DNA from: Gluconobacter kondonii
Lineage (GTDB): Bacteria; Pseudomonadota; Alphaproteobacteria; Acetobacterales; Acetobacteraceae
NCBI RefSeq assembly: GCF_002723995.1
Contig: NZ_BEWP01000007.1
Location: 124,001-188,000 of the forward strand
Length of the DNA: 64,000 nucleotides
Direction: 5' to 3'
Below, one piece after another: positions 57,139 to 60,056 of this stretch. Numbering within the stretch: the first letter of the stretch is position 1; each line of letters begins with the position of its first letter. The notes under the pieces are model-generated. The model was not told the origin of the DNA. It saw only the letters and a list, made by a program, of their open reading frames with translations, and did no database searches. The translations under genes and the position numbers were made by a program.

Positions 57139-57452
57139 GTCCGCGTAGCTCAGCAGGATAGAGCACAGGATTCCTAAGGCTTTAGAATTGGGCGCCATGA
57201 TGGGAAACCGTATGGTGGATTTGCTCAAATTCGGGGAACGCTCTGATCATCTTGATCGTGCCAATCCCGAGCCAAGCGTTCCGGCGCGCCGGAACGAAGG
57301 TGTAGAGACTGTACGGGCAACACCTTGACTGCGTTTCTCGTAGTTGTGGTGAAGAGACAGTCCAGACCACAAACATGCTTTGCGGCATGGCGGCGAAAGC
57401 CGAAGTGGTAAGAATCCTGGGGCCGGAGGTTCGAATCCTCTCGCGGACACCA
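57139..57452 (+). tRNA. tRNA-Arg(CCU) interrupted by a group I intron
   Basis: Exon 1 is 57139-57175 and exon 2 is 57413-57452; joined they make a 77-nt tRNA with encoded CCA. Acceptor stem: GTCCGCG with CGCGGAC. D-arm: GCTC..GAGC. Anticodon stem: CAGGA with TCCTG. Anticodon loop: TTCCTAA, anticodon CCT (57173-57175). Variable loop: GGGCC. T-arm: GGAGG-TTCGAAT-CCTCT. The discriminator is A, followed by CCA. The intron splits the loop directly after the third anticodon base, the position known for the Agrobacterium tRNA-Arg(CCU) intron. This tRNA reads the rare AGG codon; without splicing it cannot be functional. Confidence 0.93.
57176..57412 (+). ncRNA. Group I self-splicing intron, 237 nt
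   Basis: The 5' exon ends in U and the intron ends in G, as required. A candidate guide GGG (57190-57192) could pair with the CCU exon end. P2: CGCCAT (57193-57198) with ATGGTG (57212-57217), capped by GAAA. P element AAATTCGGGGAA (57227-57238) pairs through TCGGG with Q AATCCCGAGCC (57263-57273). P5 hairpin GATCA/TGATC. P6-type palindrome at 57278-57295. R GTGTAGAGACTG (57300-57311) pairs through GACTGT with ACAGTC of S (57352-57363) to make P7. A CGGC-GAAA-GCCG hairpin (57391-57402) near the 3' end is P9-like. No ORF is present. It strongly resembles the small Azoarcus tRNA-Ile and Agrobacterium tRNA-Arg introns. Confidence 0.9.
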
Positions 57453-57869
57453 TACAGACAAAACATCCTTACAAAACTACCGTTTTGCCCTGATGTTTTA
57501 TAATTCAGAGGGTACATTTTAGAACGACCTTCTAATGACCAGCATAAATGCGAATCAGTCACGCAGTATTTGCCGTTTACGACGTCAATCCAATAAAATT
57601 ACCATGAATATGAAGTGACTCTATTCTCACTTACTTGTTATATAAATATTGAATAACCGAACATGGTAGTATGCGTATCGATATCCAACGCTTCGCGCTA
57701 CCTTTCTGGCAGAACTTGTCTCGGACTTCATCCCTCAAAAAATAATAATCTTTTTGAAATATTAGATTGACACATCATTTTCCTCGGTGCGCGCGCGTTT
57801 GTCTTTTTATGAGGAAGCTTTCCGAACTGCGCTATCAGTCCATATTTTTATAACCGTACATTAGGGTGA
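57453..57869. other. AT-rich region between tRNA-Arg and the phage remnant
   Basis: About 417 bp without a credible gene. It starts with the tRNA terminator (57460-57499); the rest is markedly AT-rich. No repeat of the tRNA 3' end (attachment-site signature) was found here or up to acs. Confidence 0.5.
57460..57499 (+). terminator. Nested hairpin terminator after tRNA-Arg
   Basis: Outer arms AAAACATC/GATGTTTT and inner arms AAAAC/GTTTT are separated by a symmetric 5-nt internal loop and followed by ATAATT. It lies eight bases after the CCA. Confidence 0.7.
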
Positions 57870-58043
57870 GTTTTCTGGACAAGGTTAAAGGTCTGGCACC
57901 GTATCGGGCTGCTGCTGAAACAAACACGCACCCGTCTGAACGCGTATGGTCTGCTGTCGCGGAAGAAAAGGCAGGATACTCCTGCAACAATACCAAAAAA
58001 TTATGATTTTGACGCGTTTCTGACCGATGTGAGGACTGCATGA
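57870..58043 (+). pseudogene. Truncated ORF end upstream of the tail-fibre gene
   Basis: After an in-frame stop at 57867 there are 57 sense codons with no ATG, GTG or TTG. The sequence includes RIGLLLKQTRTRLNAYGLLS and NYDFDAFLTDVRTA and ends in TGA, which overlaps the fibre gene start as ATGA. The coupling overlap and basic-to-acidic protein-like composition suggest the 3' end of a lost phage structural gene. The family is not recognised. Confidence 0.4.
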
Positions 58044-59770
58044 CCACAATCCATAATCTCACACCTTCCCCGCTGCGTACGATCGTTTTACAGGGGCGCA
58101 ACGGAACCGTTTCACAGGTTATCTTGTCCCCCAAATCATCCGCTGACTGCCTGGACTATACGCTGGACTTTTCGGCGATTCTGGCTGGAACGGATGATAC
58201 ACCAGCCACAATCAAGTCAACCACACTTACCGCCACGGGTGACGCTTACGAGCTCAAGGCCATGTGGAGTGCCGTATCGGGGACAATGGTGGTGGTGTTT
58301 CTTGCAAGCGGGCAGCCCGACACGACACAAAAAATCCTTTTCGAGATCACGACCCAGCAGGGCCGCGTCTATTCCGTAATGGCTGTCCTTCAGATCACGG
58401 CACTGACCGGTGCAACTGCACCTCCATCGGACTTCACGGCTGATACCCTGACGAACGGTAAAGTTCTGATCGCCGACACGGAAACTCTACCGTCGGGCTA
58501 TTCGTCGAACGGTCGCGTCGTGATGGCCACTGAAGCCGCGGCCCCCATTGGCACGCCCTCTTTTGAAAGCGTGACAGCAGGGACTTATTCCGGCGATGGC
58601 TCGGGACTGAATGTCATTAGCAGCGCCAAGATCCAAACCATCGGGCAATGGATCGCGGCACTATCCTCGGGCGGGACTCAGGGCGTCGAGATCAAAGCAA
58701 TCAACGTGACACAAGGTGCTGTCGTGGCAGGTCAGTCGTCGACGGTAACGCTGATCGCAACCCTCACCGATGGCACCACAACCGCCCCTGTCACGTTCGA
58801 TGTCCCAGCTGGATCTCCCGGCACACAGGGCCTGCAAGGGAATACCGGCGCAACAGGAACGGACGGCAAAGACGGCCAGGTTGGACCTGCCGGCGTAGGG
58901 ATCGCATCTGTCGCCGTGAGCCAAAGCCCCGTCACAGCGGGTCAGCCTTCCACCGTTACCCTCACAGCGACAATGACCAATGGTGCAACTGCACCTGGGG
59001 TTTCCTTCCAAGCCCCTCCCGGCGCAGGCGGCGGCGCAACGGATTTTACGGCGGCGGCGATCAATACAGCCCTCGGTTATACGGCCGCGAATGGGACTGA
59101 TTACCTGCCATTACAGATGGCATCCATCTCCAATATCCCAACCCTAAGTCACCCGTCTGATGCAGGTTCTGATCCATCACTATTTAGCATGGTAGATGCA
59201 ACCAAAGAGCATGGTATTAATATTGGATTTACATCTAACAATAACTATAATCGATTTACCATCTTATCAAAAGATAATTTCCCACCTTGCCTAACACTGC
59301 AAGATAACTACGGATATGGTGGATATTTATTCTTAAAAACCGTTAGTGGAAATAACTCTTTAGCCTCTCCCTGGTTCGGAATAGACGGGACCTGGGGCGA
59401 AAGTGGAATAATGTGGGTCGAGAAGGACTCCGATAGTGGAGTGTACTGGAAGATCTCCTGTCCTTCCACATCCACCCAGAATGCGGCGGCAACATTCGAC
59501 ATCACCGCGTCCAATTCAGACAATACCAAATATCTATCAACTCCTGCCGTATCGATTTCAAAGGCTACAAATCAGGCAACCTTGGCTGCCGAGCCAGTTA
59601 TCTTGGCTTATAACGCCTACACATTCACAACGCTCCCTGCCTCCCCTGTCGCGTGGCAGCGTGCCGTTGTCACAGACAAAGCCATCGGCTCTGGTTCACA
59701 GGGCGTCATGGCGATGTGGAACCCGAATACGAAAGCATGGACAGGCTTGAGCGGAGAGACGCTCGTATGA
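58040..59770 (+). CDS. Phage tail-fibre-like protein with adaptor domain and collagen-like repeats
   Basis: The 576-residue product looks modular. Residues 1-120 (LDYTLDFSAILAGTDDTPAT, VVVFLASGQPDTTQKILFEI) resemble the phage fibre-tail adaptor fold. About 215-260 and 290-335 are two copies of a repeat (VTQGAVVAGQSSTVTLIATL versus VSQSPVTAGQPSTVTLTATM), the first followed by a collagen-like Gly-X-Y run (GSPGTQGLQGNTGATG). The C-terminal half, after ALGYTAANG, is a variable, AT-richer receptor-binding-like region ending in VMAMWNPNTKAWTGLSGETL, a typical fibre C-terminus. No other intact phage gene is in the window, so it is a remnant or captured module. Confidence 0.75.
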   Translation: MTTIHNLTPSPLRTIVLQGRNGTVSQVILSPKSSADCLDYTLDFSAILAGTDDTPATIKSTTLTATGDAYELKAMWSAVSGTMVVVFLASGQPDTTQKILFEITTQQGRVYSVMAVLQITALTGATAPPSDFTADTLTNGKVLIADTETLPSGYSSNGRVVMATEAAAPIGTPSFESVTAGTYSGDGSGLNVISSAKIQTIGQWIAALSSGGTQGVEIKAINVTQGAVVAGQSSTVTLIATLTDGTTTAPVTFDVPAGSPGTQGLQGNTGATGTDGKDGQVGPAGVGIASVAVSQSPVTAGQPSTVTLTATMTNGATAPGVSFQAPPGAGGGATDFTAAAINTALGYTAANGTDYLPLQMASISNIPTLSHPSDAGSDPSLFSMVDATKEHGINIGFTSNNNYNRFTILSKDNFPPCLTLQDNYGYGGYLFLKTVSGNNSLASPWFGIDGTWGESGIMWVEKDSDSGVYWKISCPSTSTQNAAATFDITASNSDNTKYLSTPAVSISKATNQATLAAEPVILAYNAYTFTTLPASPVAWQRAVVTDKAIGSGSQGVMAMWNPNTKAWTGLSGETLV

Positions 59771-59809
59771 AGTGACGGCTCTGGCACGACTATCCGGGCT
59801 TCTAGCTGT

Positions 59810-59852
59810 TCAGCAGTTCGAGACGCGCTGACAATATGTATCGAACTGCTGA
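59810..59852. repeat. 12-bp inverted repeat downstream of the tail-fibre gene
   Basis: TCAGCAGTTCGA and TCGAACTGCTGA are perfect arms with a 19-base spacer. It may be a transcript-end structure or a recombination site. A weaker hairpin with a T-run (about 59933-59957, CCCAAC..AACTGGGCTTTTT) follows. Confidence 0.45.
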
Positions 59853-60056
59853 TTTGAGAGCTCCATAGCGTATTCGCGTTTTCTCACCCGTACCCAAGGA
59901 GCAAAAAATTCTCCGACTACCTGTCGCGAGTACCCAACTCCCTAACTGGGCTTTTTATAAGGATGAAAAAATTCTCTCTGTTTCAGAACCTGCAAGCCAA
60001 ATATAACAACAGCCCACTCTGTGGCGTCTGCTTTTTGTGCGTAAGGTTTCAGGTTC

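Follow-up and report, generated by a model that had tools for sequence, protein, structure and literature searches.

What interrupts the tRNA-Arg(CCU) gene of this Gluconobacter genome, and does the reading of AGG codons depend on the removal of the interruption? The gene lies at 57139-57452 (+) of the window, by which we mean the whole 64,000-nucleotide stretch of DNA that was analysed, and is broken by a 237-nt insert after tRNA position 36. The 5' exon (57139..57175, +, 37 nt), delimited by the intron-aware tRNA search and by the fold of the joined exons, has the anticodon CCT as its final triplet; the intron (57176..57412, +, 237 nt), recognised by its match to the covariance model RF00028 and by covariation, begins with AAGG and ends with a G at 57412; and the 3' exon (57413..57452, +, 40 nt) encodes the CCA end. 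With introns of 200-300 nt allowed, ARAGORN returns a single gene in the 64 kb, at exactly 57139-57452, with the anticodon cct and an intron of 237 nt, and the joined exons form a 77-nt cloverleaf, tRNA-Arg(cct), whose joint falls in the anticodon loop directly after position 36. The original prediction that both tRNA halves fold and meet in the anticodon loop, for which an intron-aware search had been suggested as a check, is hereby borne out to the nucleotide in coordinates, joint and insert length; the U directly 5' of the 5' splice site and the G that closes the intron, both named in it, are seen in the sequence. Run with default settings, ARAGORN finds no tRNA in the window. Scans for signals near the gene were uninformative, with two promoter-like sites (shuffled mean 1.4) and one terminator-like site, on the opposite strand (shuffled mean 0.9).

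The covariance search, which had likewise been proposed, gave a divided answer. RF00028 matches at 57173-57384, a hit of 47.0 bits (E 1e-10) that spans the full model (positions 1-253 of 253) and is the sole one in the genome at E 0.001; the score falls 3 bits short of the curated gathering score of 50, so that Rfam at gathering thresholds reports no match in the window, and the Rfam alignment of the intron flags several non-standard pairs. The folding energy of the precursor has a z-score of -3.33, with none of 100 shuffles as low, for a minimum-energy fold that cannot represent the pseudoknot. A homing endonuclease frame was not found in the intron among ORFs of at least 80 aa, the only overlapping one being antisense (57182-57562), and 237 nt leave little room for such a reading frame; judged by this small size and the lone antisense ORF, the intron appears to lack the internal endonuclease frame that would mark it as mobile.

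On the window's own sequence we drew by hand a P1-P9 structure of 74 named pairs, in which the elements P, Q, R and S, the pairings P4 and P7 and the GAAA-capped hairpins of the original prediction are all present. The internal guide sequence AATTGGG (57186..57192, +) supplies UUGGG, whose pairing with CCU|AA across the 5' splice site forms P1 and places a U-G pair there; by eye, its AUU could also pair with AAU of the 3' exon as a candidate P10. P2 (57193..57217, +) and P9b are capped by GAAA, and subgroup IC3, defined by its peripheral elements, is at most a candidate placement of the intron. The 5' strand of P3 (57221..57226, +) pairs with its 3' strand (57315..57320, +). P4 (57230-57235 with 57266-57271) encloses P5 and P5a and holds the elements P and Q (57230..57271, +), followed by P6/P6a (57272..57300, +). 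P7, which we take to be the guanosine-binding helix, joins element R (57307..57311, +) to element S (57358..57362, +) and is pseudoknotted with P3, while P8 (57321..57351, +) and P9 with P9a and P9b (57366..57409, +) complete the structure.

How well does this structure hold in other genomes? In a scan of named genomes, 109 stretches fit the pattern and 80 of them are given as loci, of which 74 pass our boundary rules; five of those that fail (L140, L153, L164, L177, L202) have their 3' exon cut off at the end of the fetched stretch and were judged by coordinates, and the sixth (L147) is seemingly a contig of L074 (genome G042), which fails the rules too and whose anticodon stem is, by eye, incompletely paired. 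The tRNA-Arg loci from the genome searches pass in 53 of 53 cases (30 from the search of the genus and its near relatives, 23 from the family search). Together these make 127 rows, 109 of them distinct, the window being L032. The other 126 rows were selected by insertion after position 36 of tRNA-Arg(CCU); they also had to show the U at the 5' site and the terminal G, two features that therefore count as evidence for the window only. From the 109 distinct rows we hand-picked 59 Acetobacteraceae sequences for one alignment (A1; L060, L061, L126, L144 and L170 were omitted as divergent or long) and, for breadth, 35 plus L074 for a wider alphaproteobacterial one (A2).

Across the 59 Acetobacteraceae sequences, 92.9% of 4290 cells hold standard pairs, against a shuffled mean of 80.8%, with none of 500 shuffles as high as the observed share, and against 31.6-41.4% when the structure was slid along the alignment. 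Changes on both sides of a pair occur in 43 of the 74 pairs (shuffled mean 34.9; slid structures 18-24), and on all five covariation measures the real structure beats 500 of 500 shuffles. The 36 wider sequences give 90.1% of cells paired and 46 pairs changed on both sides, compared with 31.4-44.8% and 17-32 pairs for the slid controls. Having the window's sequence as its template, the drawn structure is favoured over the slid controls in the share of cells paired, and the two-sided changes are the stronger evidence. They are carried in the family set by P2, P3, P5a, P6a, P8 and P9: in the outer part of P2 five of seven pairs are changed on both sides, in P3 three of six (100% of cells paired in both), in P5a four of five (87.3%), in P6a all eight (88.1%), in P8 11 of 12, and in the three helices of P9 together 10 of 13 (95.9-100%). 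The weakest helices there are P8, with 77.1% of cells paired (66.6% in the wider set), and inner P2, whose three loop-side pairs reach 78.4% and include one that is open in 28 of 58 sequences. P1 is paired in 100% of cells and has its U-G in 59/59, with no two-sided change. P7, P6 and nearly all of P4 are invariant in the family set and so lend no covariation support there; five of the six P4 pairs do not vary, and the outermost, a U-G, fails in 4/59 sequences and in 14/36 of the wider set. For the pseudoknotted core this means that P3 covaries among the 59, and that one pair of P7 covaries in the wider set, where it is G-C in 33 sequences, U-A in two and a gap or N in one. A chance fold is rejected on the RF00028 E-value, the folding z-score and this covariation. 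The covariance model, the intron-aware tRNA search and a pseudoknotted core with two-sided changes thus support, at the level of sequence, the reading of the insert in tRNA-Arg(CCU) as a compact group I intron, and the observation is confirmed as real and rightly interpreted.

Introns of this kind have known counterparts. For Agrobacterium and other alpha-purple bacteria, Paquin, Heinfling and Shub reportedly described introns in tRNA-Arg(CCU) in 1999, in a paper whose title speaks of a sporadic, partly horizontal history. The Agrobacterium loci that we compared (L141, L165, L183) share 84-85% identity with the window over 212-213 ungapped positions and have their intron at the same insertion site, as the original prediction had claimed; kinship with the Agrobacterium and Bartonella tRNA-Arg(CCU) introns is apparent in the A2 alignment, in the identities and in the tree. 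The Azoarcus tRNA-Ile ribozyme belongs to subgroup IC3 and has a compact layout with GAAA at L2 and L9. It sits in another tRNA (Ile), and its likeness to the window's intron consists in this layout and in the GAAA loops. Crystal structures of the Azoarcus ribozyme are mentioned in one paper (PMC3984707). Closest to home, the footnote of a table published in 2015 notes for acetic acid bacteria that a sequence homologous to a group I intron splits one tRNA (Arg), a mark carried by Asaia bogorensis, Acetobacter pasteurianus, Gluconobacter oxydans, Gluconacetobacter diazotrophicus and presumably Komagataeibacter, and not by Granulibacter (PMC4596401). The entry for Gluconobacter oxydans 621H agrees with our locus in the arginine tRNA, in genus and family and in the kind of interruption; it concerns another Gluconobacter genome, however, and neither anticodon nor structure is given in that footnote (PMC4596401). 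In Bartonella bacilliformis, the tRNA-Arg(CCU) intron BbgpI splices in vivo and self-splices in vitro, according to a report that names Agrobacterium tumefaciens as the first case (PMC7717549). BbgpI lies in the same gene and has the same P1-P9 layout as the Gluconobacter intron, and a B. bacilliformis intron (L200) is identical to the window at 178 of 212 ungapped positions (255 columns); it belongs, however, to another alphaproteobacterial order, and its splicing is demonstrated, whereas that of the Gluconobacter intron is predicted.

The best explanation of the locus, of which we are nearly certain, is that a group I ribozyme excises the 237 nt from a single precursor and leaves the exons joined as tRNA-Arg(CCU). 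The whole gene would be transcribed as one RNA, in which the intron would adopt the group I fold, P1 to P9 with the P3/P7 pseudoknot; a guanosine bound in P7 would attack the phosphate after U36, at the site marked by the U-G pair of P1, and the freed end of the 5' exon, aided by P10, would then attack after the terminal G, so that the intron would be released and the exons ligated. That the gene is transcribed and spliced, that RNA alone would suffice in vitro, and that the tRNA would be charged and used at AGG, we infer from relatives and from general knowledge. A variant of this explanation, compatible with it, is that the intron requires a host protein for splicing in the cell, as group I introns in general are presumed to rely on cofactors in vivo (PMC7717549); as the Bartonella counterpart self-splices in vitro (PMC7717549), we consider such a requirement conceivable but rather unlikely.

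Every Gluconobacter genome that we searched has the intron, and over the family its distribution is patchy. All 25 same-genus relatives match across query positions 1-313 at 78-96% identity, which with the genome itself makes 26/26 Gluconobacter genomes; for 15 of the 25, the intron with its 12 flanking nucleotides at either end is identical to that of a locus titled Gluconobacter, one of these an uncultured bin. The original prediction's guess of an acetic acid bacterium as host is thereby right. In the family search, at least 97 of 249 genomes (our own included) have a match running from the 5' exon into the intron, the anticodon being established only where the locus was extracted; 94 of these matches cover nearly the whole query without a break, whereas three (G141, G252, G256) are partial or in two pieces. 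Within the same family, the gene of G027 can be read directly as uninterrupted, and abutting exon matches show the same for G028, G029, G032 and G035. RF00028 is a poor census of the intron: it matches 84 of 299 genomes of the family at E 0.001, 17 of them above the cut-off, and misses G026, G031 and G034, where the DNA search gave near full-length matches; among the seven same-genus genomes listed with a match (our own included), two pass the Rfam cut-off. The 80 loci of the named scan are all alphaproteobacterial by title and include Gluconobacter, Acetobacter, Asaia, Bombella and Commensalibacter as well as Bartonella, Agrobacterium, Rhizobium, Azospirillum and relatives of Rhodobacter. In a tree of 84 introns (rooted at the midpoint for drawing only, with unsettled bootstrap and a weakly supported backbone), the window joins first with G025 and then with G. 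albidus and G. cadivus. The introns of Bartonella (27) form one group and those of Rhizobiaceae (12) another, whereas those of Acetobacteraceae are scattered; Asaia, for example, shares a group with introns of Rhizobiaceae and Paracoccaceae and is separate from Gluconobacter. Such a scattered placement would fit a sporadic, partly horizontal history.

The surroundings of the gene and its more distant kin offered further observations. The 1500 bases upstream of the tRNA match in 20 of the 25 same-genus loci, the 1500 downstream in one (71 bp); in the region 57453-60056, an ORF (58040-59770) matches the phage fibre-tail adaptor family PF23148, and there may be a hot spot of integration on the 3' side of the tRNA. 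We also considered, and rejected, that the same intron is carried by a plasmid or a phage: none of the six matching phage records and none of the 1273 matching plasmid records (1264 of them at 60-80% identity) cover 80% of the query, and the four plasmid places that were read hold a related intron in another tRNA. Three plasmid records were inspected more closely, from Escherichia (L082, LR890662.1), Acinetobacter (L083, NZ_OR492670.1) and Klebsiella (L084, NZ_CP139688.1); they carry a gene that by eye resembles tRNA-Leu(UAA) and holds a related group I intron; it is missing from the gene tables of the records and lies, in two of the three, in the same segment as aac(3)-IId. The gene may mark a chromosomal origin of the segment; we found no literature on such a plasmid gene with its intron. 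Related introns were also recognised by eye in other alphaproteobacterial tRNAs (L076, L077, L078, L079, L085), namely in Leu(UAA) of G026, G034 and G044, probably in Lys(UUU) of G046, and probably in Thr(UGU) on a Tritonibacter replicon. In one Gluconobacter relative (G010), a related group I intron splits the only full tRNA-Lys(UUU) found (L248, G010:C19:12549-12836), with exons 97% and 100% identical to the intact tRNA-Lys(UUU) gene of our own genome (G000); against this reading, the intron-aware ARAGORN typed the split gene as tRNA-Tyr. A lone tRNA-Lys(UUU) 5' half in the same genome (L247, G010:C12:48013-48051) lies beside a sequence that is multi-copy in the five genomes searched and IS-like by eye. 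In G000 the far flanks map to separate sites, which makes it likely that a rearrangement took place at this tRNA.

But does AGG decoding depend on splicing? RF00005 finds 42 tRNAs in the genome, whose arginine anticodons ARAGORN types as ACG (two), CCG (one) and TCT (one). The search for a second CCU gene that the original prediction had called for thus found none among these 42 tRNAs of a draft assembly in 63 contigs, and an intact second copy is rejected on this list. The list also lacks genes for Ile, Ala(TGC) and Val(GAC), the last being absent or in an assembly gap, so that in a draft of this kind a CCU gene may likewise sit in a gap. The tRNA-Arg(UCU) gene is intact, and tRNA-Arg(UCU) could read AGG by wobble, for which reason AGG decoding need not hinge on splicing. 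The predicted dependence is no more than a possibility. The same tRNA, together with the rarity of AGG (it accounts for 9 of the 3117 codons of six ORFs in the window, two of these ORFs with Pfam support), would suit a decayed intron that no longer splices, in a silent gene that leaves AGG to tRNA-Arg(UCU) alone; neither the core nor the exons are damaged, however, both show constraint on pairing, and the gene is retained in 25/25 same-genus relatives, and we give this reading very little credence. An archaeal-type tRNA intron cut by an endonuclease, or a chance insertion, is practically out of the question, as there is a group I core with covariation and nothing was found in favour of either.

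With excision by a group I ribozyme as the preferred explanation, what does the locus mean for the genus and its family? The feature is already known in outline for Gluconobacter, where the footnote cited above marks it (PMC4596401), and in the same gene of related bacteria; added here are the comparative test of the structure, the presence in 26/26 Gluconobacter genomes and the misses at standard cut-offs. The matter is chiefly one of annotation: the gene escapes default tRNA finding as well as the curated Rfam cut-off, and Gluconobacter genomes may therefore appear to be without tRNA-Arg(CCU). The only CCU gene found is split, and its intron is in all 26 Gluconobacter genomes searched, which invites the speculation that AGG decoding might be controlled by how efficiently the intron splices, through guanosine, Mg2+ or temperature, and that the persistence of the intron would then reflect use rather than inertia; we regard this as a long shot. 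Beyond annotation, the locus offers a clean case for asking why an intron occurs throughout one genus and only in places elsewhere in the family.
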